From positions 186,001 through 250,000 of the forward strand of contig CACNPC010000001.1 in NCBI GenBank assembly GCA_902622245.1: 64,000 nt of DNA. The letters are read 5' to 3'. Of this stretch, positions 11,531 through 53,801 are shown in pieces (the first letter of the stretch is position 1; every line of letters begins with the position of its first letter). Origin of the DNA: an uncultured Pelagibacteraceae bacterium (GTDB lineage Bacteria > Pseudomonadota > Alphaproteobacteria > Pelagibacterales > Pelagibacteraceae). Made by a program: the position numbers and the translations under genes. Below the pieces are notes generated by a model that worked only from the letters and a program-made list of their open reading frames with translations, was not told the origin of the DNA and made no database searches.

Positions 11531-11959
11531 ATGGTTGCACTAAGACAAATTTCAGAACAACGAGACTTTGTTGTTAGTTCTGCAAGTTTGAAGGACGTAA
11601 GATCATTTTCTAGAGAAGTATTTGAAAAAGTAAATATCGAACAAGATTTAAAAGATGAATTAGTCCTAGCGATTGCTGAGGCTGCACAAAATATTGTCAA
11701 GCATGCTTATCAAGGTGAAGACACTGAAGATAAAATGGAGATAAAAATTTCTTTAAAGAACGGTGAATTAGAGATAGGTTTTTTTGATAAGGGAAGACCT
11801 GTTGATAAAGAAAATGTTCGGCACAGAAAAATTGATGATGTTAAACCAGGTGGTTTAGGAACTTTTTTTATACAACAAATTATGGACGCAGTAGTATTTA
11901 AAGAAGGTGAAAAGCCTTGGATAAATCATTTAATTTTAACAAAGAAAATAAATTATTAA
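11531..11959 (+). CDS. RsbW/SpoIIAB-like HATPase serine kinase (anti-sigma factor type)
   Basis: ELVLAIAEAAQNIVKHAYQG (N box), IGFFDKGRPVD (G1-like), KPGGLGTFFIQQIMD (G2-like). Follows the STAS gene by 3 bp. Confidence 0.9.
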   Translation: MVALRQISEQRDFVVSSASLKDVRSFSREVFEKVNIEQDLKDELVLAIAEAAQNIVKHAYQGEDTEDKMEIKISLKNGELEIGFFDKGRPVDKENVRHRKIDDVKPGGLGTFFIQQIMDAVVFKEGEKPWINHLILTKKINY

Positions 11960-13197
11960 CTTCCAATAATCGCACCAACGTTGAATATTGGTGAGTACAT
12001 CGCAATCATTAATCCACCAATCATTGTTCCCATGAATACAATCATTATAGGTTCAATTAAACTAGACATGTTATCAACTGCGGTATCAAATTCTTCCTCA
12101 TAATAAGCAGAGACAGAACTAAACATCTCATCTAAATTTCCTGTTTGCTCTCCAACAGAAATTAATTGGCTAAACGTTGGTGGAAATACAGGTTCTTTTA
12201 AAAAAAGTTTAGTTAATGTATCTCCTGAAAATACTCCTTTTTTAACATTTTCTAATGCTTGTGTTACTACATCATTGTTGCTGACTGATTTAGCAATCTC
12301 AATACTTTCAAGTAAATTAACACCTGCAGCACTTAAGTTTCCCATGATCAATGAAATTCTTGCTATTAAAGACTTTAAAATCATATCACCAAATACTGGC
12401 ATTCTAAGAACTTGTTGATGCCATTTATATCTTACTGCTGGCATCTTAGTGGTTGTGTATTTAAAAATAATAAATATTGTAAGTAGAACTAAACCTAAAG
12501 TTAAACCACCAGCACCTCTCATAAAGTTACTTGCAGTCATAATTACGGCAGTTGGTGTTGGTAATGCAACACCCATTCCATCGTACATTTTAGCAAATAC
12601 TGGAACAACTTTAATTAACATGAAAACCATAACTATTATGGCGACTGAAAACATAACCACTGGATAGGTTAATGCACTTTTAATTTTCTTTTTTACTTTT
12701 TCTCTTTTTTCAAGAGAATCGACTAATTTAAGCAAGAAAACATCTAATTTACCACTGGCTTCGCCCGCTTTGATAAGATTTATGTAAACATTATCAAATA
12801 TTTTTGGGTATTTTTCAAAACACTTTGATAAAGTAATACCACCCTCAAGATTTTTTCTAACATCTTCAATAATTTCTTTCATTGTGGGATGCTCAATTTG
12901 ATCTCTTAACATTCCCAACACATTTAATATTGGCAATCCAGCTTTTACCATTGTTGCAAATTGTTTGGAGAAAATCATTACATCTTCTGGCTTTACTTTC
13001 TTTTTTCCAAATGAAAATCCACCACCCTTTTTTTTATCTTTTTCTGCTTTTTTCTTTTTAACTTTTGTTAAATTTGTGATTATTACTTTTTGTTCTTTAA
13101 GTTTAAACGAGGCTTCCTCTTGATTAATTGCCTCAATCTCACCCTCTATATATTTACCTGCAGATATACCTTTATATGAAAATGTTTCGGATGACAT
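11956..13197 (-). CDS. pilC: Type IV pilus inner-membrane platform protein
   Basis: T2SF family: FSKQFATMVKAGLPILNVL, GGITLSKCFEKYPKIFDNVYINLIKAGEASGKLD, C-terminal SSLIEPIMIVFMGTMIGGLMIAMYSPIF. Confidence 0.93.
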   Translation of the reverse strand: MSSETFSYKGISAGKYIEGEIEAINQEEASFKLKEQKVIITNLTKVKKKKAEKDKKKGGGFSFGKKKVKPEDVMIFSKQFATMVKAGLPILNVLGMLRDQIEHPTMKEIIEDVRKNLEGGITLSKCFEKYPKIFDNVYINLIKAGEASGKLDVFLLKLVDSLEKREKVKKKIKSALTYPVVMFSVAIIVMVFMLIKVVPVFAKMYDGMGVALPTPTAVIMTASNFMRGAGGLTLGLVLLTIFIIFKYTTTKMPAVRYKWHQQVLRMPVFGDMILKSLIARISLIMGNLSAAGVNLLESIEIAKSVSNNDVVTQALENVKKGVFSGDTLTKLFLKEPVFPPTFSQLISVGEQTGNLDEMFSSVSAYYEEEFDTAVDNMSSLIEPIMIVFMGTMIGGLMIAMYSPIFNVGAIIGS

Positions 13198-13199
13198 TT

Positions 13200-14948
13200 T
13201 TAATCCATCGATAGAACTCTATCGTATTCTCTAAAATTCAAGTCTCCTGTTAAAATAAGCTCTCTTCCCATATCTTGCATTGTTCTAAAACCTTCATTGG
13301 CAGCAATTTCTTTTAACTCAGGAGTGGTTGCTTTTCTTAAAATTGCTTCTTTAATTGGTTTTGTAACATTTAAAATTTCATAAATTCCCATTCGTCCTTT
13401 ATATCCACTATCTTTGCATTTAGCACATCCTTTACCCTTTTGAACTTTTGCTCTTGATGCTTGTTCTACAGTAAATCCTAAGTCAGCAAGTGCTTTTGGT
13501 GTAATATCTTCATCTGGCTCTCTACATTCAGTGCAAGTTTTTCTTGCAAGCCTTTGTGCTAGCACAAGTGAAACAGCTGCACTTATTAAATAATCTGGGG
13601 TTCCCATGTTTTGTAATCTAGTAATTGTGCTTGGTGCATCATTTGTGTGTAAAGTACTAAATACTAAGTGTCCTGTTAGTGCTGCCTTTAATCCAATATC
13701 TACAGTTTCTTTATCCCGCATCTCACCAACAAGAATAATTTCTGGGTCTTGTCTTAAAAAAGATCGAAGTGCTGCAGCAAAATTTAAACCAATATCATCT
13801 TTTATTTGAACTTGTCCAACACCATCCAATTCATATTCAACTGGGTCTTCAGCAGTTAAAATATTTAAATGTGGTTTAGAAACTTCTTTAAGAATACTAT
13901 AAAGTGTTGTTGTTTTTCCTGAACCCGTTGGTCCTGTTACAAGTACTAATCCCTGCGTTCCATGAATTGCTTTTCGTAAATTAGATAAATCTGTTTCTTC
14001 AAAATTTAATTGTTCTAAACTTATGTCTCCCGCATCTTTGTTAAGTACCCGCATTACAATTCTCTCATTGTTTGCAGTTGGTAAAATAGATAATCGAAGA
14101 TCAACTACTTTTCCGTCTATTTTAAATGGTATAGCTCCATCTTGTGGTAACCTTCTTTCAGCAATATCAAGTTTACCCATAATTTTAAAACGTGTAACCA
14201 CTGCCCCATAATTTGAATGTAGAAATTTTGCAAAATGCTCTTGTTCAGTTAAGATACCGTCCAATCTATATCTAACTCTTGATGAAAATCTGTACGGTTC
14301 AATGTGAATATCTGATACACCCGATTTAATTGCTTCTGCAACTACAGCAGTACTAAATTTGATAACATCAGACTCATTTTCTATAGCCTCAATGTCTTCC
14401 TCTGGTTTCTCCTCTAGTACTTCAGCGTTTTCATCAACGTCATAATCAAAAGTTTTAGTTTTTTCGCTATTAGCCTTTTGAATAGACTCCATTGTAGTTT
14501 CACCATCAGCTAATAATCTGTCTATATAGGATGAAATATCTGAAATTTTAGCAGCGTGTAACTCAATATCTTTTTTTGTGATAGTTTTTAAATTTCTCAT
14601 CAAACTTAATTTTGAACTGTCTGGAATTGCTATATGTAAAATATTTCCCTCAATTTTGAATGGGGCTATAAAATTCATATTTATATAATTTGAAGGAAGA
14701 ATAGATTTTATTTCATCAGTGATTTCAACAGTCGATAAATCGATTATATCTAGAGATTGTTCATTTACTAAAAGATCTAAAATTTTTTGTTCGTCAGTTA
14801 ACTTTAATTCAAATACTGCTTCTATTTGAGATTTTTCCCCCTCTGAAGAGGCTTTCTTGATATCAACTAAATCCTTTCCAGAAATAATATCCTGATCAAT
14901 GAGAATATTAATTAAATTTATTTCAGACTCTCTACTAATTTTTAGCAT
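13200..14948 (-). CDS. pilB: Type IV pilus extension ATPase
   Basis: GSPII_E family: Walker A GPTGSGKTTTLYSIL, DPEIILVGEMRDKETVDIGLKAALTGHLVFSTLHTNDAPS, zinc motif CTECREPD...CAKCKDSGY. Confidence 0.95.
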   Translation of the reverse strand: MLKISRESEINLINILIDQDIISGKDLVDIKKASSEGEKSQIEAVFELKLTDEQKILDLLVNEQSLDIIDLSTVEITDEIKSILPSNYINMNFIAPFKIEGNILHIAIPDSSKLSLMRNLKTITKKDIELHAAKISDISSYIDRLLADGETTMESIQKANSEKTKTFDYDVDENAEVLEEKPEEDIEAIENESDVIKFSTAVVAEAIKSGVSDIHIEPYRFSSRVRYRLDGILTEQEHFAKFLHSNYGAVVTRFKIMGKLDIAERRLPQDGAIPFKIDGKVVDLRLSILPTANNERIVMRVLNKDAGDISLEQLNFEETDLSNLRKAIHGTQGLVLVTGPTGSGKTTTLYSILKEVSKPHLNILTAEDPVEYELDGVGQVQIKDDIGLNFAAALRSFLRQDPEIILVGEMRDKETVDIGLKAALTGHLVFSTLHTNDAPSTITRLQNMGTPDYLISAAVSLVLAQRLARKTCTECREPDEDITPKALADLGFTVEQASRAKVQKGKGCAKCKDSGYKGRMGIYEILNVTKPIKEAILRKATTPELKEIAANEGFRTMQDMGRELILTGDLNFREYDRVLSMD

Positions 14949-16498
14949 TATAAAATTCTTGGTGCTATAAATATAAGCAATTCCTCCAAATTGTCTTCAT
15001 TCTTTTTATATTTTAATAGATTACCAATTACAGGGACATTTCCAAGACCTGGAACCTGTTCATTTGCTTTTGTCACATTATTTGATTTTATTCCACCAAT
15101 TACAACAATATCTCCATCAGCAACCAATAATTTCGTGGTAATTTCCATCTTAGTTATAGGAGGTTCTGACTGAGAAGTATCAGCATCATCATTATTTACC
15201 TGAATATCTAACAACACATTACCATCTCCAATTATGCTAGGTGTAACTTGAAGTTTTAATGCTGCCTCTTTAAATGATGTTGATGTTGTACCTTCAGATG
15301 TTGTTTCGTAAGGAATTTCTTTACCTTGCGTAACCGATGCTGGTTGATTGTTGATTGTAAATACTTTTGGATTTGAAATTGTCTCTACTATGCCTGTTTT
15401 TTCTAAAGCTGTAATTTCAGCTTTTAATACAGCCGATCCTGTTCTTTTTAATACTCCAATACCACTTGTCGCTCCAATTGCAGGTAAATTTGTTAAACTA
15501 TCTTTAGCTGTTTGAACAAGTGCAGCAGATGTATCATCTAAAGTTCCTGATGAGCTTGTTGTACCAACAACTCCACCGATTTGTTCTTGTTGTCTTTGGT
15601 AATATCCACCTAGTCTTGTTCCAAGTTGTCTCTCAAATTCAGAAGTGGCTTTTACTACAAATGCTTCGATAAGAACTTGCTCAGTTTTAATATCTATTTC
15701 TGTTAGTACTTTATCTACAGTATCTAAATCTCTTTCCTTACCTCTAACTATAATTGATCTAGTGGCTGTCTCTTCTGTAATTTTTATAGGAGATGTTGAT
15801 GCTTCTCCTGAACCAGTCTGAAATAGTTCTTCAATTGTAGCTTTTGCTAACTCGGGAGATATATAATATAGTCTAAAAATTTCAGATATAATTGGTTCAA
15901 CACTATCCTCTAATTCTACTTTATTTTTAACTGCCTGTGCTCTTTCAGATTTGTAATTTTCTTGTGCAGTTAATGTTTCAGGAGAGTGAATTCTAATTAA
16001 ATTGCTATTAACATCTATGTCAGAAGCATAATTTTTCATGTCTAAAAGAGCTTGGAATGCTTTATCCCATGGCACATCAACTAACTCAGCTGATATTGCA
16101 CCAGCAACCTCATCTCCTACTAAAACATTAATTTCGCCAATTTTACCCATCATTTTCATTGTTTCTTTAAAATCTAAATTTTTAAATTTCAAAGTTACTC
16201 TTTGTTTAAGTAATGGGTAGCTTTCAGGAATTAAAAGATAATTTCTCTGTGTTTCAGATGTTATTTTTCTTCTTTTCTTTAATTTGACCGCATCACCATC
16301 AACTGGCTTAGGTCCCATTTCTAAGGTTTTAGCAATTTCTGCTTGACCTGTTTGTCTTATATCATTTTTAATTAAAGGTGTGTTGTGTTTAAAAGGTTTA
16401 TTATATTTTTGATTAAATTTAGAGTTTGGACCACAACTATTTAAAATTATTGCTAATATTATTAAGTATGCAGATGTAATTATTTTCTTAGTATTCAT
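14948..16498 (-). CDS. pilQ: Outer-membrane secretin (PilQ/MshL-like)
   Basis: Lipoprotein-like start (LNSCGPNS), STN-like region, secretin core VLIEAFVVKATSEFERQLGTRLG...ISNPKVFTINNQPASVTQGKEIPY...VPGLGNVPVIGNLLKYKKNEDNLEELLIFIAPRIL. Confidence 0.9.
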   Translation of the reverse strand: MNTKKIITSAYLIILAIILNSCGPNSKFNQKYNKPFKHNTPLIKNDIRQTGQAEIAKTLEMGPKPVDGDAVKLKKRRKITSETQRNYLLIPESYPLLKQRVTLKFKNLDFKETMKMMGKIGEINVLVGDEVAGAISAELVDVPWDKAFQALLDMKNYASDIDVNSNLIRIHSPETLTAQENYKSERAQAVKNKVELEDSVEPIISEIFRLYYISPELAKATIEELFQTGSGEASTSPIKITEETATRSIIVRGKERDLDTVDKVLTEIDIKTEQVLIEAFVVKATSEFERQLGTRLGGYYQRQQEQIGGVVGTTSSSGTLDDTSAALVQTAKDSLTNLPAIGATSGIGVLKRTGSAVLKAEITALEKTGIVETISNPKVFTINNQPASVTQGKEIPYETTSEGTTSTSFKEAALKLQVTPSIIGDGNVLLDIQVNNDDADTSQSEPPITKMEITTKLLVADGDIVVIGGIKSNNVTKANEQVPGLGNVPVIGNLLKYKKNEDNLEELLIFIAPRIL

Positions 16499-16952
16499 CT
16501 GCCTCTCTTATTTGGTTATTAAAATCTATAATTATGTATGATTTATCTTCTTTTAAAAAGATTGCTTCTGTTAATCTTAAGTCAATTAATTTTACTTTCC
16601 CAAGATATTGACCAAGTGTTATAGTCATTACATCCCCTGATGCATCTGTAAGACTTATATAGCTCGCATTTGCTCCTGATATTAATCCTGATAATTTAAA
16701 ATTATATAAACTCATTGGATCTCTTTCTTCTCCAGTTTCAGGATTTAAAGATGAATTAGATCCTTCATTTCCAGCAAATGGATCATTCAAAGGAACATCC
16801 TCTTCCTCTTCTTCAACTTTTGTTTCTAAAGTTTTTGTAATCTCTTTTGCCTTTTCGACAAGTTCAGCATTTGTAGAATGATTATCTGCAAAACCAATGT
16901 TTGGGATACAGAAAAACAAAATAAAGAATAATATTTTTTTAAAAGAATTCAT
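16488..16952 (-). CDS. Type IV pilus assembly PilP-like protein
   Basis: Signal peptide; DPFAG...DPMSLYNFKLSGLISG...ASYISLTDASGDVMTITLGQYLGKVKLIDL typical of PilP; position between secretin and PilO. Confidence 0.75.
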   Translation of the reverse strand: MNSFKKILFFILFFCIPNIGFADNHSTNAELVEKAKEITKTLETKVEEEEEDVPLNDPFAGNEGSNSSLNPETGEERDPMSLYNFKLSGLISGANASYISLTDASGDVMTITLGQYLGKVKLIDLRLTEAIFLKEDKSYIIIDFNNQIREADEY

Positions 16953-17613
16953 CCGGTATTCCCACTATTGTAAGTTCTCCTTTTGCAATTATCGCTCCAG
17001 TTGAATCGTTTTGTACTATACTTATAGTCTCCTTGTCAAAATTTAACATTTTCTTGGATTTTGCAATTGATCTTTTAAATTTAATGTAGCCTAAAAAGTT
17101 ACCTTTTATCTCATATTCGACAGGTATTTGATAATAAGAGATATCAGATTTTTTTAACAGTTCTTCTGCTTGTTGAGCAACACCAGGTTTTAAAATAGGT
17201 TTTGGTTTTTTCTTTTCTATTTTTGAAATCGTCAAACCATTTATGCCTGCAAATCTACTTAGGCTTTGATACAATCCTTCAACTTCAGCTTTTGAGTGAA
17301 ACAACGTTGAACTTTCTTTAAATTGAGGTTTTAGTTTCTTTAATCTTTTTTTGTTAGTAATTATCTCATCCTCGAATTGAGTAATTTCAGACTCTTTTAA
17401 AACCTTGTCTTCGTATAACGCTTTTTTCTCTTTAACAATTGGATTTAAGATTAAGTAATACCCAATTAAAAAAATTATAATTGCAAAAAAACCAGCTCCA
17501 AATTTAATAAGAGTTTTTTTATCAACAGTTTTTAACTTTGCAGCTATATCACTTACATTTATATTTTTTAAATCTATATTTTTCAAATCCATTATGCGTT
17601 CTCCAGAATACAA
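16939..17613 (-). CDS. pilO: Type IV pilus assembly PilO-like protein
   Basis: One N-terminal TM, coiled coil, ferredoxin-like C-terminus (VEGLYQSLSRFAGINGLTISKIE...YYQIPVEYEIKGNFLGYIKFKRSI); position in the pilMNOPQ order. Confidence 0.82.
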   Translation of the reverse strand: MYSGERIMDLKNIDLKNINVSDIAAKLKTVDKKTLIKFGAGFFAIIIFLIGYYLILNPIVKEKKALYEDKVLKESEITQFEDEIITNKKRLKKLKPQFKESSTLFHSKAEVEGLYQSLSRFAGINGLTISKIEKKKPKPILKPGVAQQAEELLKKSDISYYQIPVEYEIKGNFLGYIKFKRSIAKSKKMLNFDKETISIVQNDSTGAIIAKGELTIVGIPDEFF

Positions 17614-19307
17614 GCTATTTTAAATCCCTTCATTGTTGGGGCTCCAGCAGTTTGACCATCTGGTAAAGTCATTGTAGCTAATTGTGCTTGCATTATTAGT
17701 TTTTTATTATTTAAATTACTTATTAACTTTAAAATATCTTGGTCACTTGATGCTGTTCCTTGTATAATAATCTGATTTGATCCGTTGTACTCTATTGAAT
17801 TGAATTTTACTCTTTTTGGAACAGCTGAAGCTATTTGAGCCAGAACTCTAAAACTTACTTTTTTGTTTGATTTTATTGATTTACTAATTTTTAAAGATTT
17901 TAAAATTAAAGCTAATTCTTTTTCTACTTTATTTTTTTCTAATGTTCTAAGTTCATGTGTTTGAAGAATATCATCATATCCAACTAATTGTTTATTCAAT
18001 GTATTTATTTGCCAAAAAGAAAGGCCAAATAATACTATATAAATTATTGCGATAACTCCTATTGCACCTTTGAAAGCAAAATTAGAAAATACTTTAGCTT
18101 TTTTCTGTGCTATCATACTATCTCTATTAGGAAGTAGATTTATATTTTTTACAGCAGTTACAAATTTGTAATATCCAAACACATCAAGTTTTCTAAACGC
18201 CAATCCAATAACAGTTGAGAGATAAGACCTATTATCTAACTTAACGCTCTCTTCTAGTTGTGCTGGAACTTTTATTTCTTTAATTGGATCTAATAAATTA
18301 AATCCTGTATTTGTTAAATTTTTTCTAAAAGTGCCGAGATAAGTTTCTACATTTTCTAAATTTGACACTACTTTCAGGTTTCTAATTCTTTTTTCATACT
18401 TTGTTTCAAAATCTTGCACCGCTTGCTTAACTTGAGTTACATATCTTCTAACTAAAGCATCCATCTCTTCCTGATTATCTGAATTTTGAAGAGTATTTCT
18501 ATCCTGAGATCTTATAAATATATCTGTGATGATTGGATTATTTTCATACAAAATCATTACATAGTTTTCATCTAATCCAAATTCTAAAACTGCAGTTAAG
18601 TTTGCATCCTCAATTGAGCCAGCTAATTGATTCATTTGGTCGACTGCAGATTTAAGAGCAAAACACTTAACATCAATTATAACTGCATTTAAACCGCCCT
18701 TCTTTATTATTGCTGTATAACTATTGATATCTGATAGTTTCGATGCAACGAATAAAATATCCATTGTATTTGCGGTTTTATCTCTATTTATTACTTGATG
18801 AAAAATTGAATAATCATTTAAGTTATCTGTTAATTGTACAAGGTTTTCCCAAAGAGAGTCTGTGTCTATTGCTTTGCTCAGCTCTTCATCTGTCATTAGG
18901 GGTGCTGTTACAACTCTGATAATTGCACTAGTTACAGGAATGGCAATCGCAGCATTTGTCGTAGTTATTTTAGATTTTTGAAGAGCAATTTTAAGTTCGT
19001 CTCCAAACTTATCTTGATTATCTAAAACAGTAGCACTTTTATCTAGACCTTCAATTGGGTGAATAAAAAATTTTTCTAAAACCCATTTGTTGGATTTATC
19101 AGTTGTTAGTTGTGCTAACCTAATTTCTGTTGGTGAAAGCTCAACACCTACAATTTCTTCTCCTTGAACTGCAGATTTTCCAATCCTATTTTTAAAAAAC
19201 TTACCTAAAAAACTTTCTTTTTTCTTTTTTTCCTCTTTTTTTGGAACGGGTGTTTGTTCGCCTTCTTTAGATTTCTTTTTGAATAAATTAGCAAAAGGGT
19301 TTTTCAT
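17592..19307 (-). CDS. Fused PilM-PilN type IV pilus assembly protein
   Basis: N-terminal actin-like PilM region (VQGEEIVGVELSPTEIRLAQL...NAVIIDVKCFALKSAVD) followed by PilN signature INLLPNRDSMIAQKKAKVFSNFAFKGAIGVIAIIYIVLFGLSFWQINTLN. Confidence 0.82.
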   Translation of the reverse strand: MKNPFANLFKKKSKEGEQTPVPKKEEKKKKESFLGKFFKNRIGKSAVQGEEIVGVELSPTEIRLAQLTTDKSNKWVLEKFFIHPIEGLDKSATVLDNQDKFGDELKIALQKSKITTTNAAIAIPVTSAIIRVVTAPLMTDEELSKAIDTDSLWENLVQLTDNLNDYSIFHQVINRDKTANTMDILFVASKLSDINSYTAIIKKGGLNAVIIDVKCFALKSAVDQMNQLAGSIEDANLTAVLEFGLDENYVMILYENNPIITDIFIRSQDRNTLQNSDNQEEMDALVRRYVTQVKQAVQDFETKYEKRIRNLKVVSNLENVETYLGTFRKNLTNTGFNLLDPIKEIKVPAQLEESVKLDNRSYLSTVIGLAFRKLDVFGYYKFVTAVKNINLLPNRDSMIAQKKAKVFSNFAFKGAIGVIAIIYIVLFGLSFWQINTLNKQLVGYDDILQTHELRTLEKNKVEKELALILKSLKISKSIKSNKKVSFRVLAQIASAVPKRVKFNSIEYNGSNQIIIQGTASSDQDILKLISNLNNKKLIMQAQLATMTLPDGQTAGAPTMKGFKIACILENA

Positions 19308-19461: not shown

Positions 19462-20478
19462 ATGTTTGAAAAATTAGAGCAGTTAGCGAAAGATAATAAG
19501 AAAATTTCTGATTTTCATATTAGAGCGGGATCTCCACTAGCATATCGACAAACTGGAGAAATCGTAAAAGTTGAAGGCACAAATGTTACAGCTCAAGATC
19601 TAAAAGATTTAATCTCAATGAATTGTAACGAACACGAAGCTGAAAAATTTGAAAAGACTCATGAGTTAGACTCTGCAGTCATGTTAAGCGGATTAAGATT
19701 TAGAGCAAATTTTTATAAAACGATTAGTGGACCAGCTGCAGTATTAAGAAGAGTTGAAAGTAAAATTCCAGATATGGATCAATTTAGTCTACCGCAAGCT
19801 CTTTATGATATAGTAGATTTCCATAAAGGACTGGTGCTTGTAACTGGACCAACTGGTTCAGGTAAATCAACAACACTTGCAGCAATCGTAAATGAAATTA
19901 ATAAAACAAGAACATCAAATATTATAACTGTTGAGGATCCAGTAGAATTTATTCACAAAGATAATAAAAGCATTGTTTCTCATCGAGAAGTTGGAAAACA
20001 AACTCAATCTTTTGCAGCAGCGCTTAAAGCTGCGTTAAGAGAAGATCCAGATGTAATTCTTGTTGGTGAGATGAGAGATCTTGAAACAATTAGTTTAGCG
20101 CTTACTGCTGCAGAAACTGGTCACCTAGTTTTTGGAACTTTGCATACAAGTGGTGCGCCAAGCACAATAAATAGAATAATTGATGTTTTTCCTCCAGAGC
20201 AACAAGAACAAATTAGAGCTCAAATTTCTACATCACTAAAAATGGTAGTTACCCAAAGATTGTTAAAAACAAGAGATGGTGCTGGTAGGGTTGGTGCATT
20301 TGAAATCATGAAGTGCACTGCGCCAATTCAGAACTTAATAAGAGAAGCAAAAATTCACCAAATACCAAGCATTATGCAAACTGCTGTGCGTGATGGAATG
20401 ATCACTATGGAAAAATCACTGGAGGAATTAGTAAAGTCGGGTAAGATAGATCCAGGTGCAGCAAGATCAGGACATTAA
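19462..20478 (+). CDS. pilT: Type IV pilus retraction ATPase
   Basis: GPTGSGKSTTLAAIVNEIN, EDPVEFIH, ALREDPDVILVGEMRDLETISLALTAAETGHLVFGTLHTSGAPSTINRIIDVFP. Confidence 0.95.
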   Translation: MFEKLEQLAKDNKKISDFHIRAGSPLAYRQTGEIVKVEGTNVTAQDLKDLISMNCNEHEAEKFEKTHELDSAVMLSGLRFRANFYKTISGPAAVLRRVESKIPDMDQFSLPQALYDIVDFHKGLVLVTGPTGSGKSTTLAAIVNEINKTRTSNIITVEDPVEFIHKDNKSIVSHREVGKQTQSFAAALKAALREDPDVILVGEMRDLETISLALTAAETGHLVFGTLHTSGAPSTINRIIDVFPPEQQEQIRAQISTSLKMVVTQRLLKTRDGAGRVGAFEIMKCTAPIQNLIREAKIHQIPSIMQTAVRDGMITMEKSLEELVKSGKIDPGAARSGH

Positions 20479-21187
20479 AGGTTTCACAATTTTAGAATTG
20501 CTAGTTGTTATTGCAATTGTAGCAATCATATCTGGTGTAGCGTATCCAAGTTTTTCAAAATGGAGCACAGAACGAAAAGTAAGAGCTGCAACAGAAAAAG
20601 TTGCAAGCATGATTTCTAATATTGCAACACAAACTCAAAGAGGAAACTTAGCTTATAGCCAATTAATGGTACAAACATTTACAGGCTCTAAAAACCAAGA
20701 AAGCTCAATTTTTGTATCAAAGGGAATGGGAGATAAAAATTTCAAACAAAAATTGCAGAATGGACAAATTAATTGTCCAGTATCCTCATCAGGTTATTGG
20801 GATGATTTTGGTAAACCACGTAAAAATATTGAGGGAACAAATTTTAGTGAGTATTACGAAATTTTCAATCCTGAGGAAAATGTAATTGGCGAGTCTAAAA
20901 TTGCAGTTCATTTTCTATTAACATCTGCAATATGTTTTGGTAAAGGAGGAAATTATTATAAAGCAACCAATGCTCTTTCAAAAGGAAGTAACGTTAACAT
21001 CATTGTTGAAGGTAGCGCTACTCCTAATTACATTGTTATTTGCACTTATGAGAACGCAAAAAAAAATGGAAACAAATGTCCTACAAAAGGAAAAGCTCTT
21101 AAAAAACCAGCCTATTTAGTAAAATGGTCAAGATTTGGTAATGTAAGTAAATTTAAATGGAATGGAAGTGATTGGAATAGACAGTAA
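20456..21187 (+). CDS. Minor pseudopilin (FimU/GspH-like)
   Basis: KGFTILELLVVIAIVAIISGVAYPSFSKW prepilin motif; GTG start overlapping pilT by 23 bp. Confidence 0.85.
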   Translation: MQQDQDIKGFTILELLVVIAIVAIISGVAYPSFSKWSTERKVRAATEKVASMISNIATQTQRGNLAYSQLMVQTFTGSKNQESSIFVSKGMGDKNFKQKLQNGQINCPVSSSGYWDDFGKPRKNIEGTNFSEYYEIFNPEENVIGESKIAVHFLLTSAICFGKGGNYYKATNALSKGSNVNIIVEGSATPNYIVICTYENAKKNGNKCPTKGKALKKPAYLVKWSRFGNVSKFKWNGSDWNRQ

Positions 21188-21803
21188 ATTAAAAGAAAAG
21201 GGTTTAACGCTTTTAGAAGCTTTAGTTGCAACGGCTATTGTTGGAATAGGTTTTATAGCGGTTTTTCAGATGGTCAATTATTCAGTTAGATCAATTGATG
21301 TTTCTGGGGAAAGAACAAAATCTAATTATATCACTGCTATGATAGCAGAAGATTTAATTGGAGATGCAAATTCAAAAAAAGGTGATGATAAACTTTATGA
21401 ACATCTAGCTAACTTAACGGATAAGAATGATTACGCTTGGCAAAATGCAGAATGTAAACCGAAAAAAAATATAACAGGCAATCCTTATAAAGGTAAAGAT
21501 ATTGCAATTGATAATAAAACACAAAAATGGAATTTGAGAGTATCAAGCGACAGAATTAAATGCAAACCCACAAGTATTAACTCAACAACAACCAAAGATA
21601 CAAAAAAATTAAAAGTTTATGAGATTTGTAGAAATAACGTAAAAGAAAATGGGAAGAGTAGACCAAACTGTGATTATCGTAATGATGATATTTGGGACAA
21701 AACTTATATCGGCAGAATGGAAATATTAATGCCAACTACAGGGACAGATACTAAAGGTGAAACTGTTCAAAAGAAAAAATATTTATATTTTCAAATGAAC
21801 TGA
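21162..21803 (+). CDS. Minor pilin, PilV-like
   Basis: KEKGLTLLEALVATAIVGIGFIAVFQM prepilin-type N-terminus; position in minor-pilin operon. Confidence 0.82.
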   Translation: MEVIGIDSKLKEKGLTLLEALVATAIVGIGFIAVFQMVNYSVRSIDVSGERTKSNYITAMIAEDLIGDANSKKGDDKLYEHLANLTDKNDYAWQNAECKPKKNITGNPYKGKDIAIDNKTQKWNLRVSSDRIKCKPTSINSTTTKDTKKLKVYEICRNNVKENGKSRPNCDYRNDDIWDKTYIGRMEILMPTTGTDTKGETVQKKKYLYFQMN

Positions 21804-22600
21804 TGAAAAAATTTAATTCAGAAACTGGAGTAACGCTAATTGAAATTCTTATTGGGGTTGTGATTTCAATGATAATGATGGCTGCTATGTTTACATCTTA
21901 CAACGCAGTTAATAATAGTTATTCCCAAGTAATTGATCGAGCAAAGATTAGTCAGACAGGAAGAGATATGATTGGAATGTTAGTGAGAGATATAAGAATT
22001 GCAGGTTTTAGATATTTTGATGATGTCAGTAAAACCCCAACAAATTACGTTCCAATTTTAATTACAAAAGCTCCAGGTAGTGGTTGTGATAAAATTGAAA
22101 TAACTTACGGTGATAGAATTAGAGATCCTAAAAATCTTAACGCTAAACCACCAGTTTTTTTATATAAAACATACAAAGTCGTTTACGAGTGTAAAGCATC
22201 AAATATTGTAGACAAGAAAACTAACAAAAAAATTAATGCATATGCCATTTATAAATCAAAATATGAATGGAATGGATCTAGCTGGACGGCACCAACACAA
22301 TCAACTGATGACTTGCTTTATAAAGATGAATTGGTGGTTGATTACGTTCAAGAATTAATTTTTATTCCAATTGATAGTAAGGGTAAAGTGATGAATCCAA
22401 TTCCTAAAACACTTAGCGATAGCAACAAGATTAAAGTTGTTGATATAATGGTATCTTTAAGATCTCAGGGCGAGTTTTTTAGAAAAGAGAATGAAAGACC
22501 ATTTAGACTTTTAGGTCAAAAATCTAATAAGAAATTCACAGATAAGTTTTTAAGAGAAGCTTTAGTCGTATCAGCACACACAAGAAATATGGGACTATGA
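21803..22600 (+). CDS. Minor pilin, PilW-like
   Basis: ETGVTLIEILIGVVISMIMMAAMFTSY; position. Confidence 0.83.
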   Translation: MKKFNSETGVTLIEILIGVVISMIMMAAMFTSYNAVNNSYSQVIDRAKISQTGRDMIGMLVRDIRIAGFRYFDDVSKTPTNYVPILITKAPGSGCDKIEITYGDRIRDPKNLNAKPPVFLYKTYKVVYECKASNIVDKKTNKKINAYAIYKSKYEWNGSSWTAPTQSTDDLLYKDELVVDYVQELIFIPIDSKGKVMNPIPKTLSDSNKIKVVDIMVSLRSQGEFFRKENERPFRLLGQKSNKKFTDKFLREALVVSAHTRNMGL

Positions 22601-23355
22601 TAATTAGAAAATCAGAAAAAGGATTTGCAATGGTTTTGTCTTTAGTTTTGCTATTGGCAATGTCATTGATGGGTGGAGCATTGATATTAATTTCATCAGG
22701 TGACCATCAAAGTAATAATAACAGTGATCAATATCAACAAACATTTTATGCTGCAGAGATGGCGCTTGTACAAGGAGAAAAATATATTTTAAATGAGAAA
22801 AGTGGACCATGGGACGGAAAAAGCACTAGAGATACTTCAAAAGCAAATTTACCAGAAGATCATACCTCTCCTTTTTTAGGAACTATGAGTGCGCAAAACT
22901 ATAATCCAGGTGCTAAATATAAATTTACATCAACAATTGATCGAAAATTTATAAATACAGGTACATCTTGTTTTAAAAGCTATAGAGATATTGATAGAGA
23001 TAATCCAGACGACAAAAAAAGGATGAGAGTTATAAAGAATGAAACCACGAAAAAAGAAGTGGCTCACAGTTTTAATCTTGGAGTAATTCTTGAAAATACC
23101 TTTAGAAATAAAGGTAAAGATTTTGAAAAAGAGGAAGCAGTTAGAATGAAAAGTTATTATTATGAGTACTTTATTGAAAGAATTGGTGCCGCGAGCACAC
23201 AAGCAATCGGATCCAGCATTAAATTAACGGCATCTGATGCTTCAAAGAATGGTATTGCTTACAGAGTTTATGGTTGTGGTATTTATGGAGCTGAAAAAGA
23301 AAAAGATAGAATGATAGTTTCGTTAGAAAGTGTGGTAGTTTTACCTAAAAATTAA
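22597..23355 (+). CDS. PilX-like pilus assembly protein
   Basis: KGFAMVLSLVLLLAMSLMGGALILISSGDHQSNNNSDQYQQTFYAAEMAL matches PilX/PilX_N style N-terminus. Confidence 0.78.
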   Translation: MIIRKSEKGFAMVLSLVLLLAMSLMGGALILISSGDHQSNNNSDQYQQTFYAAEMALVQGEKYILNEKSGPWDGKSTRDTSKANLPEDHTSPFLGTMSAQNYNPGAKYKFTSTIDRKFINTGTSCFKSYRDIDRDNPDDKKRMRVIKNETTKKEVAHSFNLGVILENTFRNKGKDFEKEEAVRMKSYYYEYFIERIGAASTQAIGSSIKLTASDASKNGIAYRVYGCGIYGAEKEKDRMIVSLESVVVLPKN

Positions 23356-23403
23356 GGTTTTTAACTAATAAAATATGAATAAAATAAGATAATATATACG
23401 TTT

Positions 23404-23952
23404 ATGAAAAAAATTATTTTAATAAGCTTCATATTCCTTTTCTCAATTCATGCAAACGCAGCTTGTAAATTTGATTTGGACTTTGGTGAGGATATCTCAA
23501 AAATACAGGATAAATATGGCCCAGCAATGCCACTAGAAAATTTTGGAGAAGATGAATTGAGCATGGTCATTGCTGTTGCTGATGAAGTCTGCCCAAACCA
23601 CAGGTTAAAAGATGTTGCTATTGAGTATAGATTTTTAAACGACAAACTAGCTGCGGTTAATTTAATTAGTTTAAATACTGAAAGCGACACAAAAAAATCT
23701 GAAAAATTAACTATAATGAAATATGTAAAAAGAAATTATGGTGACTTTGATACAGGTCAAACTCCAACCTCATATCTTGGATATGAAGTATTTGAAAAAA
23801 CAAAGCAGTTTATAGTTTACCAAAGAATTTTGGATGATCTTGGATTTATTGAAGAGCAAATGTATCTTTCTAACAAAAAATATGATGAGTTACTTGGAAT
23901 TTTCTACAATCAACTTGAAGAAGAGATGGCGAAAAGTGAGTCTCAAAATTAA
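23404..23952 (+). CDS. Secreted hypothetical protein in minor-pilin/pilY1 operon
   Basis: Signal peptide MKKIILISFIFLFSIHANAA; 182 aa; stop overlaps start of the PilY1-like gene; no family recognised. Confidence 0.7.
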   Translation: MKKIILISFIFLFSIHANAACKFDLDFGEDISKIQDKYGPAMPLENFGEDELSMVIAVADEVCPNHRLKDVAIEYRFLNDKLAAVNLISLNTESDTKKSEKLTIMKYVKRNYGDFDTGQTPTSYLGYEVFEKTKQFIVYQRILDDLGFIEEQMYLSNKKYDELLGIFYNQLEEEMAKSESQN

Positions 23953-26900
23953 TGAAATTTAAAATTTTTATATCCAGCCTAATACTGTTCTTTTCTTTTT
24001 TTGCATCAAACTTACATGCAAAATTATTGCCGCCAGGCACTGGAACACAAGCTGATGTTCCTTCCAACTTATTAATTCTTTTAGATAAATCTGGAAGTAT
24101 GGGGTGGAGAATGAGTAACGCACAATCAATCAATAGAATGTTTGATGGTGTTACGGACAGTTCAGGAAATATTTATATTGCACAATTTGCAAGATATGGA
24201 GTTAGAAAAATAGATTATACTACTGGTAAAACTGATACTTCTTGGGGTTCAAATGGAAGAGTTGGTATGAGTGGGTCATGTCGAACTTACTATCCTTACA
24301 GTGCAGATGTTTATAACGGGGTCATGTATGTGGCAAGTTTATATGACCATAGAATTAGAAAGATTAGACTTTCAGATGGTGCTTGTTTAGGAAGTTTAGC
24401 TACTGGCACTTATCCTAGAGGTGTAACAGTTTATCAAAATTTTTTATTTTCCACTTCCAACAGTGGTTTGTATTCAATGAACCTGAACACTAATAGTGGA
24501 AGACGTTGTAATTTCCATAATGAATGGAAATATTCATATGCTATTGCAGGAAGTAACAATACTCTTTACAGTCACTATGGTCGTCGACTTTATAGTGCTC
24601 CTTTAACTAGTGTTGGAGGCACTTTGTGTCCTTCAGGAAGAGCTAAAAATTTTAGAGATAATGGTTCAGGCTGGGTTTATGGAATGGAAGCAGACCCTAA
24701 CACAAATGATGTACTTTATATTATGGCTCGTAGCTATAATAAGATGCGTAAAATAACTGTTAACTCGTCTAGAACTGGATACACATTAAATTGGGACAAA
24801 GGCAGATACCGGTACATGGGTGTTTCAACTGCAAGTAATACATTTTTTTATTATCCTTGGGGAATTAGTTATGATCATAGCAATGATAGGATTATTACCT
24901 ATGGATATAATGCAAAAAAAGTTCAGGTCTTTGATGAAAATGGAACATATATAAAGTCTATTGGTGGATATGCTGCTACTACAAGAATGGCAGCAGCACA
25001 TAAAGCCATAAAAGCAGTGGTCACAGACTCAAATTTAACATCAGGTGTAAATTTTGGCTTTGGTTATTGGTCAAGTTCATGGTCATCGAAAGCATGGCCA
25101 CCAGGTTTTAGTTCATGGTCAGGGGATATAACCACAGGTAGAGCAAAACCTTGTGATACCCAAAACTGTTTAAAAGTAAGAGTTCATAATGATGGAGCTG
25201 CGCAAATTAACAAAATTATTTCGTCAGTTAATGCAAGAGGTGGAACTGATGCCTATACATTTATGAAAATAGCTCAAGACTATTATCTTCATGGGAGTTT
25301 AAGCCCAATTGATAAAAATTCACCTTGTCAAAAAAGTTATGTCCTCGTTATTGGAGATGGTGATTGGTACAATCACTCAAAAGCTGTGTCTATGGCAAAA
25401 AACTTATTTAATAATTATAAGATACCCACATTCGCTATTGCTTTTGGAACAGGAATTAGCAATAGAGGAATGAGGTATTTTAATGAACTAGCTGTAGCAG
25501 GAGGAACAACAAAAGCTATTGTTGCTCCAACAGCAGAGTCACTCAAAACTCAACTAGCTGCTGCTGTTTCGCAAATAATTGCATCTAAGTTATCTTTCAC
25601 AGCGCCTGCTATTACTGCAACATTAAACTCTGATGGATCATTGTATCAAGCGCAGTTTGATTATGCTCAAAATAAAGAATGGACTGGAACTATTAAGAGA
25701 ACAAAAATAGATAAAAAAGGAAATCTTGATACAAAAGATAAAGGTAACTGGTCAGCTGTTGATGTACTGCCTAAACCAGGGAATAGAAAGATATGGAGTC
25801 CAATTCCTGGAACGGATTATTCGACAAATTATAACAACTGGGTAGAAAGTAATTCTTCAGCGATTGAAAGTATCTTAACTCTAAAAGGGTTTGATATTCA
25901 GGACTATCACAGAAAAACTAAAAATACTGATAATTCTATAAATAATAAAAGATGTGCAAACACAAGTGGTGTGGCTGATGGAACAGATGATGATTTAAAA
26001 GGCTTAATTAATTTTATTAGAGGAACAGATTATTTTGATTATGATGCAGATTGTAATCTGACAGAAGCAAGAGCTAAGCCAATGGGAGATGTTTACCATT
26101 CACAATTAGTTGTTGTAGGACCACCAACTGCAGAAACAGCTTTTACAAGTGAAAATCAAGAGGCTTATTGGAGATCAACTAAGGGATATGATAGTTGGGC
26201 AGAATCACAAAGATTGAGAAAACCTGTAATTTATGCTGGATCAAATAGTGGAGTTTTGCATGCTTTAGATGCAGGCTCAGGAGTAGAATTGTGGGGATTT
26301 GTGCCACCATTTATAGCATCAAGATTACCTACAATAATGAATACTAACTTAAATGAAATTAATCCAAACAAAGGAGGTTCAAATGCAATTTATGGTGTTG
26401 ATGGATCTCCCGTTCAACATGATATTTTCTTTCAAAGTCCACATGATACATCTGCAAATTGGCATACCGTATTGTTTGTACCTTATGGAAGAGGAGGTAG
26501 TGGTTTCTCTGTATTAGATGTGACTGATCCTGCAAAACCAGAGCATTTAGTCTCAATATATAATGATATGATTAATAATCAGGTGTACAGAATGGATCAT
26601 GCAAATAATGTTTTTGTATATGATTATATAGGTACATCTTATCCTCTAAGTGAATTTCTAGAAGCACAAGAAGTAGGTAACGTTTATGCTCCAGATAAAG
26701 ATAATGAAGTAGCAAGTAAGCAAACTTGTGATGATACACAAACTAAGTATTGTTACGAAAGCACAAAATGGACTTTACCAGTAAAAAGTCTAACTAAAAG
26801 TATGCTATCAGTTCTTGAAGATGGAGTTGATATAACAAATAGCATTACAATTAGCTATGATACATCTGGAAACACTCAAATTAATTTCAACAAAAAAATG

Positions 26901-28088
26901 AAATTTGATGCTGACGAGTCCAAAACTCAAAGAGACAACTCACCGATAGGAGTGAATATAAAACAAGGAGCAGTTGGTACTGGAGTTGTAACAGACCCTG
27001 AATGGGACTACAGTACTCTTGGAGAAACATGGTCAGATCCAAGAATATTTAGACTACCTAATGCTGGTGCTGGAGACAATGTCAGAGATGACGATATATC
27101 AGTCGCTGTAATGGGTGGAGGTTTTGGTGCTCAATTCTCAGGAGCTGGTAGTAATGTATTTGTTATTGATCTGCAATCAAAAGATAAGTTTGGACAATTA
27201 ATAAAGACAATTACGGTAGAAGATACTACTGCAAGCGATATTGATAATTCTGTTCCCGCATCATTAACAGTTATTACTCCAGATAAAGCAAGGGGTGCTG
27301 ACTTTGCAGGAGCACTTGTATACTTGTCTGATTTAGAAGGTAAAATTAGTAAATTAAATTTAACAAATATGAGTACAGATCCTCAAAATGTACCTATAAA
27401 AATGTATGACATAACAACATTATTTAAAGCAGGAGCAACTAAATCAAATGGTAGATACATGTATAAACCATTAGATGCTTCAATTGGTGGAACAACAAAT
27501 AATTTATGGTTGTACGCTGGAACTGGGGATGCTCAAAGATTGAATGCAAGAGTAAAAGGAACAAATAACTTAATGATTGGAATAAAAGATCCAGATTATC
27601 CATTCTATAAATCTATCGCAACTCCAAAAAATGCAGATGATATTACAAAATGTCAAAATACATCAAATGATAGAAGCGGAACTTCTTGTAGAGTGACAGA
27701 CAAAGACAGAGGTTGGTATGTTGTATTAAAAGATTTTGCTAAAGTTACTGCTCAACCAAAAGTAAACAATGGTATGGTTTACTTCCCAGTTTATAGACCA
27801 TCTGTATCTCAAAACAAATGTGATTTGGGAGATGCATTGATTTGTGTAACTGATGATGAATGTGGAACACATGACTCGTTTATCGGATTAGAGTCTAAAA
27901 GAACAGAACAACAAAAAACTTTATGTAGATTTGTTGGTAAAGGGGTCTTATCAGAAATCGTACTTTTCGCTGGCAAAATTTTTGCAAATATATCTGGTAA
28001 ATCGTTAGGAGCAGTTGCTGACCTTGTTACTTTAGAAGCTGCTACTGGTGAAGTTCAAACTTACAGAAAGTCTTGGAGAGAAAATTAA
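23952..28088 (+). CDS. pilY1: PilY1-like tip adhesin: vWA domain with inserted NHL-type beta-propeller plus PilY1 C-terminal propeller
   Basis: Signal peptide; LLILLDKSGSMG MIDAS motif; repeats such as GVTDSSGNIYIAQFARYGVRKID; vWA-like resumption AAAHKAIKAVV...RGGTDAYTFMKIAQDYY; PilY1 C-terminal PVIYAGSNSGVLHALDAGSGVELWGFVPPF. Confidence 0.85.
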   Translation: MKFKIFISSLILFFSFFASNLHAKLLPPGTGTQADVPSNLLILLDKSGSMGWRMSNAQSINRMFDGVTDSSGNIYIAQFARYGVRKIDYTTGKTDTSWGSNGRVGMSGSCRTYYPYSADVYNGVMYVASLYDHRIRKIRLSDGACLGSLATGTYPRGVTVYQNFLFSTSNSGLYSMNLNTNSGRRCNFHNEWKYSYAIAGSNNTLYSHYGRRLYSAPLTSVGGTLCPSGRAKNFRDNGSGWVYGMEADPNTNDVLYIMARSYNKMRKITVNSSRTGYTLNWDKGRYRYMGVSTASNTFFYYPWGISYDHSNDRIITYGYNAKKVQVFDENGTYIKSIGGYAATTRMAAAHKAIKAVVTDSNLTSGVNFGFGYWSSSWSSKAWPPGFSSWSGDITTGRAKPCDTQNCLKVRVHNDGAAQINKIISSVNARGGTDAYTFMKIAQDYYLHGSLSPIDKNSPCQKSYVLVIGDGDWYNHSKAVSMAKNLFNNYKIPTFAIAFGTGISNRGMRYFNELAVAGGTTKAIVAPTAESLKTQLAAAVSQIIASKLSFTAPAITATLNSDGSLYQAQFDYAQNKEWTGTIKRTKIDKKGNLDTKDKGNWSAVDVLPKPGNRKIWSPIPGTDYSTNYNNWVESNSSAIESILTLKGFDIQDYHRKTKNTDNSINNKRCANTSGVADGTDDDLKGLINFIRGTDYFDYDADCNLTEARAKPMGDVYHSQLVVVGPPTAETAFTSENQEAYWRSTKGYDSWAESQRLRKPVIYAGSNSGVLHALDAGSGVELWGFVPPFIASRLPTIMNTNLNEINPNKGGSNAIYGVDGSPVQHDIFFQSPHDTSANWHTVLFVPYGRGGSGFSVLDVTDPAKPEHLVSIYNDMINNQVYRMDHANNVFVYDYIGTSYPLSEFLEAQEVGNVYAPDKDNEVASKQTCDDTQTKYCYESTKWTLPVKSLTKSMLSVLEDGVDITNSITISYDTSGNTQINFNKKMKFDADESKTQRDNSPIGVNIKQGAVGTGVVTDPEWDYSTLGETWSDPRIFRLPNAGAGDNVRDDDISVAVMGGGFGAQFSGAGSNVFVIDLQSKDKFGQLIKTITVEDTTASDIDNSVPASLTVITPDKARGADFAGALVYLSDLEGKISKLNLTNMSTDPQNVPIKMYDITTLFKAGATKSNGRYMYKPLDASIGGTTNNLWLYAGTGDAQRLNARVKGTNNLMIGIKDPDYPFYKSIATPKNADDITKCQNTSNDRSGTSCRVTDKDRGWYVVLKDFAKVTAQPKVNNGMVYFPVYRPSVSQNKCDLGDALICVTDDECGTHDSFIGLESKRTEQQKTLCRFVGKGVLSEIVLFAGKIFANISGKSLGAVADLVTLEAATGEVQTYRKSWREN

Positions 28089-28100
28089 TAAAAAGGTGTA

Positions 28101-30749
28101 ATGAAAAAAATATACCTTAGCTTAATTTTATTTTTTTTATTTAGCTCTCATAGTTTAGCAGGTCCATGTTTAACAACTATTGCTAGTGCATCAACTAATC
28201 AATTGGCTTGTGCAGATGATGATATTTTAAATATTACTTCTGCTGGTTCTATTACCTACAATGACCATAAGGCTGTTGATCTAGAAGATGAAACTGGAGT
28301 TCAGATTACAAATGATGGAACAATTGAAACTGAAGATGGAACTAATAAACAAAAAGCAATTCATGCTCAATCATCTTTAAATACAACAATAACTAATAAT
28401 GGAACTATCAACTCAGACAATAATGAGGGAATTTATATAGATTACGCAGAAAATATAACAATCACAAATAATGCGGGTGCCACAATTAGCGCTGAAGCAG
28501 GAAATGCGATTGAGGGTCGAAATGTTGGTTGGTGTGATAAAGCTGGAAATAACGATAATTGTCAATCTAGTTTATCATCCTCGGGCTCTACTGCAGTTGG
28601 GCTAATATTACATAATCACGGTATGATTAGTGCAACACAAGGAACAATTTTGTTAGGCACTGGAGCAGGAGGAAACCCACGAAGTCGAGGTGTTAAAATT
28701 TATAACTATGATGGAGGAACAATTAAATCTACATCAGGTAATAACCCAATTATCGCAAAATATCTTACAGATAGTGAAATTATAAATTATGAGGGAGGAA
28801 CAATCGAGAGTGCAGGTAGATATGGTATACTAGCTGAAAATGGATCAAATATTACAATAGATAATCGTGCAACAATAACTTCAGATAGAAATACTATTTA
28901 TTGTAGAGAGTGCTCTGGAGTTACATTTACAAATTCAGGGACAATTAGCTCAACAAATACAGGTACTAATACAGGCACGGTTCTTATTGATAGACAAGGA
29001 GATAGTGACGACGCTCACACCATTACTAATAGTGGCACTATTGAATCAGCGTTTGGAGCGGCAATACAAATAGCTAGAAACACTGGTGGAACAACTATCG
29101 ACAATACTGGAACAATAAAATCATCAACAGCTGCTATTGGAGCTGGTAGAACAAAGAACCTTACCATAAATAATTATGGAACGATAACATCAACAGGTGA
29201 GAATAATACAGGTCACTTTGGAATTGGATTTGGTAACGATTCAACATCTGTAGAAGCTGGTGAAAATGTAGTTCTAAATAATTTTGGAACAATTAGCGCA
29301 ATTAATGGTGATGCAGACGGAATTAAAATTGGAGATTATCACGCCAATAAAAACTTTGATGACTTAACAATTAATAATTCAGGAACTATTTCAGGAGGTG
29401 ACAATTCTATTGTTATGGCAAATTCAAATAACACAGGATTAGAAATAGTTACTAAGGGCGATGGAACTTATATAGGTGAAATTGAATTAAATAGTACCAC
29501 TACTACCATGACATTAGATTGCAGTATTTCAAAAGATCAAAAAATAGAAATTCATAATAAGACAAATATGGTAATCACAAATAATCTTTGTGGAAATGAT
29601 ACCTATGAAATATTAGATAGTAACAGTAATTCAGATGCAGATAATTCAGAAACTAATGGTTTCTTATATGTTTATGGTGAAGATTTAGATATTGATAGTC
29701 ATAACAAAAAGTATAGATCTGAAATATTTTTATCGAATTTAAACGATATTTTTAACTCAGTTTCAGAAAAAAAAAAATCTAGTGGATATTACTCTGTTAA
29801 AAAAAGAGATAATATTTATAAAAGTGAAACAAGTGGTGTAACGGGGGACTTTGAAATTGAAAATGATAATTTTACACCGTTCTTAAGTTATTCATCTCAG
29901 CAAGCTAAATTTAATAATGGAGAAGCTTTAGATAGTGAAAATTTAGCTATCGGTTTAAAAAAAGATATTGATTACGAGAAATTTAAATTTTCTGTAGTTT
30001 CAATTTTTGGGTTAACTCAAAATAAATATTTAGATCTTGAAACTGAAACACAACAAACTATTTCAAAAGAAAATCTAGGTCAGTTTGCTGCTGTAAATTA
30101 TAAAGCATCTAAAGAAATAGAAATTGATGATAGTCAAAGTTTAAATATTGAAGTGGATGGTAAATATGGTCTAAGAAGACTTCCAACTTATCTAACATCT
30201 TTTACAGATGGGGATCTTTCTGTTGATGATGCTGTGGATCAAGTATTGTCAGGTGGATTTAACGTTGAGTATTCAAAATCTTTTGAAAATGGCTTCGTTC
30301 TTAAGCCATATACAGGCCTATCTTTAAATCAAACTTTGAGTGAAAAAATTGACATTGTTGCAGACGGTGAAAGGAAAGACATGGCCCATTATATGGATGA
30401 TGATTTAGCAGTAAAAGCTGGTTTAAATATTAGCAAAAATACTGATAATTTCGGCCTAAACTTTAATCTAGAGTTTAATGAACAAAATGGACTTAAAGAC
30501 AGCCAAGTAAGTATTTCATTAACTAAAGTAATTCAGAATAATATTAGCAAAAAAATAGAGGGTCTACCTATTGATCCAGAACTAGAAAAATTATTTGATC
30601 AATTGCAGCTAGCTAAAGAAAATGAAAGATTGGCTGAGATAAGTGGTAGAGCAGTTGAAGAGAATAGAATAATGAAAGAAATGATTATTCAGTTGATCAA
30701 AGAAAATAATAAACTCAAGACTGAAAGAAATCTTTTGCTAAAAAACTAA
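28101..30749 (+). CDS. Secreted autotransporter-like surface protein: beta-helical passenger, putative barrel, C-terminal coiled coil
   Basis: Signal peptide MKKIYLSLILFFLFSSHSLAG; many repeats of the (T/I)TNNGTI(S/T/E) type; amphipathic strands at about aa 575-815; C-terminal LAKENERLAEISGRAVEENRIMKEMIIQLIKENNKLKTERNLLLKN coiled coil. Confidence 0.72.
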   Translation: MKKIYLSLILFFLFSSHSLAGPCLTTIASASTNQLACADDDILNITSAGSITYNDHKAVDLEDETGVQITNDGTIETEDGTNKQKAIHAQSSLNTTITNNGTINSDNNEGIYIDYAENITITNNAGATISAEAGNAIEGRNVGWCDKAGNNDNCQSSLSSSGSTAVGLILHNHGMISATQGTILLGTGAGGNPRSRGVKIYNYDGGTIKSTSGNNPIIAKYLTDSEIINYEGGTIESAGRYGILAENGSNITIDNRATITSDRNTIYCRECSGVTFTNSGTISSTNTGTNTGTVLIDRQGDSDDAHTITNSGTIESAFGAAIQIARNTGGTTIDNTGTIKSSTAAIGAGRTKNLTINNYGTITSTGENNTGHFGIGFGNDSTSVEAGENVVLNNFGTISAINGDADGIKIGDYHANKNFDDLTINNSGTISGGDNSIVMANSNNTGLEIVTKGDGTYIGEIELNSTTTTMTLDCSISKDQKIEIHNKTNMVITNNLCGNDTYEILDSNSNSDADNSETNGFLYVYGEDLDIDSHNKKYRSEIFLSNLNDIFNSVSEKKKSSGYYSVKKRDNIYKSETSGVTGDFEIENDNFTPFLSYSSQQAKFNNGEALDSENLAIGLKKDIDYEKFKFSVVSIFGLTQNKYLDLETETQQTISKENLGQFAAVNYKASKEIEIDDSQSLNIEVDGKYGLRRLPTYLTSFTDGDLSVDDAVDQVLSGGFNVEYSKSFENGFVLKPYTGLSLNQTLSEKIDIVADGERKDMAHYMDDDLAVKAGLNISKNTDNFGLNFNLEFNEQNGLKDSQVSISLTKVIQNNISKKIEGLPIDPELEKLFDQLQLAKENERLAEISGRAVEENRIMKEMIIQLIKENNKLKTERNLLLKN
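28300..29420 (+). repeat. Degenerate protein-level repeat region (I-x-N-x-G-T-I) within the surface protein
   Basis: Recurring ITNDGTIET, ITNNGTINS, FTNSGTISS, ITNSGTIES, IDNTGTIKS, INNYGTITS, LNNFGTISA, INNSGTISG in translation. Confidence 0.8.
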
Positions 30750-53460: not shown

Positions 53461-53518
53461 GAATAATTTATTGAATCTGTTGTGTTTGGTTTTATATTAT
53501 TAATGTTGGTTTTCCAAC

Positions 53519-53765: not shown

Positions 53766-53801
53766 AACTTTTTAGAAATATTAAAACAAGTAAGTTATGT
53801 A

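Follow-up and report, generated by a model that had tools for sequence, protein, structure and literature searches.

The closest described systems are PilY1 of Pseudomonas aeruginosa and PilC of Neisseria and Kingella, whose genes lie after minor pilin genes and whose products combine a signal-peptide-like start, an N-terminal vWA domain with a metal site, and a C-terminal propeller of the Pfam family PF05567. For P. aeruginosa PilY1 a role as mechanosensor has been proposed, in which force-dependent signalling would pass through cysteines of the vWA domain (PMC8806160). In the searched text of a study on PilY1/ComC proteins, lineage-specific insertions of different origin are described within this vWA domain; those of the Acinetobacter ComC/PilY1 variants are a Tyr-rich finger and others, SAR11 is not covered in that text, and a propeller is not mentioned there (PMC10374093). 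Another pilus-associated vWA domain, that of CpaL from Caulobacter crescentus, flanks a beta-rich stretch at residues 204-384, past DxTxS and ahead of the metal-site Thr, although CpaL is a pilin-like protein of the Tad pilus and its insert consists of two beta-barrels that point away from the metal site (PMC12607857). Outside of pili, the alpha-I integrins combine a propeller with a vWA (I) domain by insertion of one into the other, and their ligand is bound at the metal site beside the propeller (PMC12422189, PMC10659397). Here we describe a PilY1 of SAR11 which shares the gene position, the signal-peptide-like start, the N-terminal vWA domain with its metal site and the C-terminal PF05567 propeller with the proteins of P. 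aeruginosa, Neisseria and Kingella, but unlike them is predicted to hold an NHL propeller in the vWA loop that follows DxSxS, and the SAR11 protein would therefore have two propellers. The nesting is the reverse of that in alpha-I integrins, with the propeller inside the vWA domain instead of the vWA domain inside the propeller, and the resemblance is a likeness of design, not of descent.

The host is a Pelagibacter (SAR11) with a genome of 1.34 Mb in 17 contigs, and the window, meaning the whole stretch of DNA that was analysed, is 64,000 nucleotides long. An intact open reading frame of 1378 amino acids at 23952..28088 (+) is identified by its family likeness as the type IVa pilus tip protein PilY1, with a location at the tip that is presumed from the family. 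PF05567 was matched at residues 712-876 (26085..26579, +, the start of the C-terminal propeller) with 41.5 bits against a cut-off of 28.1 (E 1.1e-10), and the crystal structure of P. aeruginosa PilY1 (3hx6) matches residues 706-867 (E 6e-14). An earlier reading, made from the sequence only, had placed the usual PilY1 C-terminal propeller in this part; the family was indeed matched, but only over profile positions 2-172 of 411, which makes the propeller a divergent member rather than a usual one. The position of the gene is ordinary for a type IVa pilus tip protein. Directly upstream is a minor pilin set of five small genes (20456..23952, +), three with Pfam matches to N_methyl, one to PilX_N and one matchless, and nearby are a pilT-like retraction ATPase gene (19462..20478, +; T2SSE), pilM-pilN in a single reading frame (17592..19307, -), the genes pilC, pilB, pilQ, pilP and pilO of the pilus machine (11956..17613, -; T2SSF, T2SSE with MshEN, Secretin, a weak PilP, and PilO) and two pilin genes. 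The fused product of pilM and pilN carries PilM_2 at residues 53-258 and PilN at 486-565, and a pilin-like gene at 10171-10611 (-) has a weak match to ComP_DUS, a family of DNA-uptake pilins. Elsewhere in the window is a tmRNA gene (53489-53799, +) marked by ARAGORN with an asterisk, probably of the permuted form, with the tag ANESYALAA. Directly 3′ of pilY1, a reading frame at 28101..30749 (+) encodes a protein of 882 amino acids with a beta-repeat passenger and a barrel-like C-terminus that has no match in Pfam; in most strains with a 98-99% identical pilY1, its counterpart shows 60-76% identity and a length of 498-885 amino acids. Judging from translation and strain comparison, this product is a putative hypervariable autotransporter-like adhesin adjoining the pilus genes, and in coastal SAR11 autotransporter adhesins have been found to adjoin pilus genes (PMC12636525).

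The sequence-only reading held that the vWA domain of this PilY1 is interrupted by an NHL-type propeller of about 290 residues. DKSGSM is found at residues 45-50, the insert spans residues 52-344 (293 amino acids), and vWA-like sequence appears again from about residue 345; the propeller-like stretches quoted in that reading are found in the translation of 23952-28088, and the interruption has proved to be more than a matter of chance. The N-terminal piece of the vWA domain (residues 24-51; 24021..24104, +) comprises the first strand, modelled at residues 38-45, and the DKSGSMG metal-site loop, with a VWA_2 match from residue 40. The C-terminal piece (residues 345-560; 24984..25631, +) starts with helix 1 (RMAAAHKAIKAVV), continues through VNFGFGYW, GGTD (T432) and VIGDG (D469), and alternates between helix and strand in the model. 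Between this piece and the C-terminal propeller lies a linker region with a beta domain (residues 561-710; 25632..26081, +), whose strands are modelled with lower confidence. The metal-site residues D45, S47, S49, T432 and D469 are invariant among 41 homologues from several genera and two SAR11 families, and an insert of 265-384 amino acids occurs at the same point in all 41 of the aligned Pelagibacterales homologues. When the two outer pieces were joined and scored against Pfam beside the C-terminal piece alone, the joined pieces of one relative (L052) reached 59.2 bits over positions 1-162 of the 174 positions of PF00092, compared with 45.3 bits from position 16 for the C-terminal piece, so that the N-terminal piece fills positions 1-15 and gains 14 bits. 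In a second relative (L110) the joined pieces scored 46.0 bits over positions 1-172 of 174, whereas the C-terminal piece had no match, and in the window protein the VWA_2 cut-off of 27 was passed only by the joined pieces (28.1 bits), a weaker score than those of the relatives. The joined pieces of L052 also align end to end with the vWA domain of ITIH4. In a Foldseek search with the whole model the top 50 matches were all propellers, which gives the vWA domain no independent support there, and its assignment rests on the profile scores, the invariant ligands and the predicted strand order. The joined-piece scores and invariant ligands point to a single vWA domain, cut between the metal-site loop and helix 1.

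Structure prediction with AlphaFold2 was carried out on residues 22-640 with an alignment of 41 sequences, resulting in a model with a mean pLDDT of 83.3, in which the insert (24105..24983, +) consists entirely of strands and its blocks reach approximately 85-95; the pTM is only 0.60, and it is from topology that the propeller's position with respect to the metal site is derived. The predicted strands, grouped by hand, fit six four-stranded blades. The best Foldseek matches are propellers, including the NHL domain of TRIM71 (9jur, TM by target 0.75, rmsd 3.4). The NHL family of Pfam was matched by 16 of 32 inserts, the best at 1.9e-23, and the window protein's own insert stays just under the cut-off of 20 (19.2 bits, E 0.0012), with clearer matches in its relatives. 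Moreover, a profile of all inserts finds solved NHL propellers in the PDB at E values around 1e-24, the best being 2.5e-25. No column of the insert alignment is invariant, and C94, G233 and G287 (insert numbering) alone come close to it. The modelled fold, the NHL profiles of Pfam and PDB and the TRIM71 match all agree with the propeller that had been claimed, and residues 52-344, which fill the loop from the DxSxS metal site to helix 1, are thus predicted to form an NHL-type propeller of six blades. In modelled fold and in the pattern of repeats it is like the NHL-repeat propellers of TRIM71, Thin and PknD, from which the SAR11 propeller differs in being a nested domain of a secreted pilus protein.

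The same loop is often long, but differently occupied, in PilY1 proteins of other Proteobacteria, as judged outside SAR11 from sequence alone. In 11 proteins of gamma/beta type, DxSxS is followed by a region of 150-230 amino acids that contains NxLYYNPxVTY and NFANWYSYYRxR and is unrelated to the SAR11 propeller, and then by helix 1; two others (L142 and L164) hold other long stretches, and in four (L136, L140, L147 and L148) the slot is empty. An AlphaFold2 model of one non-SAR11 PilY1 vWA domain (L123), made as a control for the slot with only 11 sequences, had a mean pLDDT of 45. Given these occupants and the published insertions, the slot is a known kind of place, and the architecture called unusual in the sequence-only reading is so for its NHL occupant but not for the insertion as such, which is common at this point in gamma/beta PilY1. 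The NHL propeller in the slot appears to be new and, within the sample, confined to SAR11: all 41 Pelagibacterales homologues share it, but a profile of the SAR11 vWA domain with its propeller gave partial matches only in the other genomes of a phylum sample of 349 genomes, in which scoring covered three candidates from each genome, and the open-access papers searched contain no report of a PilY1 vWA domain with a propeller inside it. Two candidates were discarded. The NHL-repeat proteins of about 1,700 residues found in one family were considered as the same architecture, and the one examined in full (L159) is an NHL-TPR protein without a vWA domain; a PA14-like stretch recognised by eye in L112 was considered as a further occupant of the slot, and the part of the reading frame that was examined contains no DxSxS. 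As for distribution, PF05567 was found in none of the 190 other genomes of a class sample and in only some SAR11 genomes, which makes the SAR11 pilus locus patchy, and it may have been acquired from elsewhere. One SAR11 genome (G043, at C1:899212-903603 and 925417-933304; L012 and L057) has three pilY1 homologues, two of them in tandem.

By alignment, the insert is seen to be the fastest-evolving part of PilY1. In 17 of 18 pairs, all but L025/L026, it ranks lowest in conservation, once in a tie, and its pairwise identity averages 23%, compared with 42-45% in the vWA C-terminal piece and the C-terminal regions. Among ten near-identical strains (approximately 98-99% over PilY1), 37 amino-acid and 17 silent changes fall in the insert, compared with 13 and 105 in the rest of the protein; pairwise omega is mostly 0.6-1.2 in the insert versus 0.02-0.12 elsewhere, and the insert shows no rise in silent divergence. 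For the neighbouring genes in near-identical strains, N/S is 0.06-0.07 in pilMN and pilT and 0.36-0.93 in the minor pilins; two minor pilin genes (20456-21803, +) reach 0.93 and 0.78, well above pilMN and pilT. With the faces assigned from the predicted model and manual blade grouping, variable sites lie on the d-a/b-c loop side of the blades at 27 of 31 sites in clade A, 67 of 81 in clade B and 54 of 74 in clade C. When the labels were slid along the insert, these counts were equalled at 4 of 276, 1 of 276 and 2 of 279 positions, respectively; the strains are related and non-independent, and Fisher p-values make the evidence look stronger than it is. For the two tightest clades, omega on the variable and the opposite face is 1.04 versus 0.17 (clade A) and 1.05 versus 0.16 (clade B), and in clade C it is 0.46 versus 0.18; the value of about 1 on the variable face has an interval that includes 1, hence positive selection is not proven. 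Most of the close strains are single-cell or metagenome-derived genomes, and amplification errors, being random, would not gather on one face. Polymorphism mapping in these three clades places the greatest variation in blades 3 and 4 (residues 157-241; 24420..24674, +), where the d-a and b-c loops belong to the most variable part of the insert, and generally less in blades 1 and 6, which adjoin the vWA domain (except for blade 6 in clade C). The single pair of clade D (L053/L054) shows no contrast between faces, and its raised silent rate in the insert suggests recombination.

Other explanations of the architecture deserve little credence. For an unrelated N-terminal DxSGSMG and a complete vWA domain after the propeller speaks the C-terminal piece of L052, which passes the vWA cut-off alone with its 45.3 bits; however, its match starts only past the metal-site strand, the same piece is matchless in L110 and in the window protein, and the metal ligands of both halves are invariant. 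Neither the first strand nor the DxSxS loop is present in the C-terminal piece, and a vWA domain from end to end is obtained only by joining, which leaves next to no room for this explanation. It is also quite improbable that the propeller is enzymatic at the pilus tip, in the manner of lactonases and gluconolactonases of related propeller families: the weak Pfam matches to SGL, Arylesterase and Lactonase, each in one or two inserts, and the Foldseek hit 2p4o, a putative SMP-30-like lactonase (TM by target 0.55), are in its favour, but the NHL matches are far stronger, and the insert alignment contains no conserved set of polar active-site residues.

The variation itself has been weighed against two further explanations. 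A propeller that fills a tolerant loop as a passive spacer or a folding module, and changes fast through relaxed constraint only, would fit the unrelated inserts that the slot tolerates in other PilY1 proteins as well as a variable-face omega near 1, which is compatible with neutrality. General relaxation should, however, affect both faces, and the opposite face is constrained, with omega of 0.16-0.22 that is much alike in clades A and B and low in clade C as well; moreover, the insert is kept in every one of the 41 homologues examined, and we consider a mere spacer unlikely. Somewhat less unlikely, though still doubtful, is that the insert is swapped between strains as a recombining cassette, its variation then consisting of imported alleles and not of local selection. 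The insert has a higher silent divergence than other regions in L008/L010 (0.52 versus 0.21-0.33) and in L053/L054 (0.43 versus 0.13-0.14, recomputed as clade D at 0.33 versus 0.12), and recombination, as read from these alignments, clearly contributes in some lineages. On the other hand, silent divergence of the insert is not raised in clade A (0.01-0.06 versus mostly 0.03-0.15), while its amino-acid divergence there is from several to more than 10 times that elsewhere, and restriction to one face is not predicted by recombination alone.

The reading that we favour, and regard as probable, is that SAR11 PilY1 has a vWA-nested NHL-type propeller which acts as a diversifying recognition head beside the metal site. 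In the usual topology of propellers, the first strand of blade 1 begins, and the last strand of blade 6 ends, on the d-a loop side, which is where the chain comes in and goes out. With entry and exit on this side, the metal site, whose loop gives rise to the insert, should lie near the variable face, and the two would then be on the same side, possibly forming one composite surface for binding at the outer end of the pilus. The variable face, as assigned from the model, is diversified between close relatives with the opposite face and the vWA core held constant, and variability on one side is as expected of a surface that recognises or evades something. The selective agent might be a changing ligand preference, for particles, glycans or other cells, or escape from a tip-binder such as phage. 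The force of the pilus would pass through the vWA domain, where force sensing could conceivably take place; the idea of a sensor stems from the work on P. aeruginosa PilY1 (PMC8806160). A bolder version of the recognition head, which we put forward tentatively and would not rate as high as even, is an “inside-out integrin” at the SAR11 pilus tip, in which a propeller face under positive selection would make up one binding surface together with the metal site, and the rapid change among co-existing strains would record either an arms race, with pilus-binding phage for example, or a strain-specific choice of ligand.

SAR11 cells are usually regarded as free-floating. The findings give SAR11 pili a defined head domain, and the face and the loops likeliest to contact a partner are now named. 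More generally, the loop after the vWA metal site of PilY1 has served as a slot for domains of quite different kinds, a point relevant to the way type IV pili acquire new binding specificities. If the “inside-out integrin” were true, it would concern the most abundant bacteria of the surface ocean.
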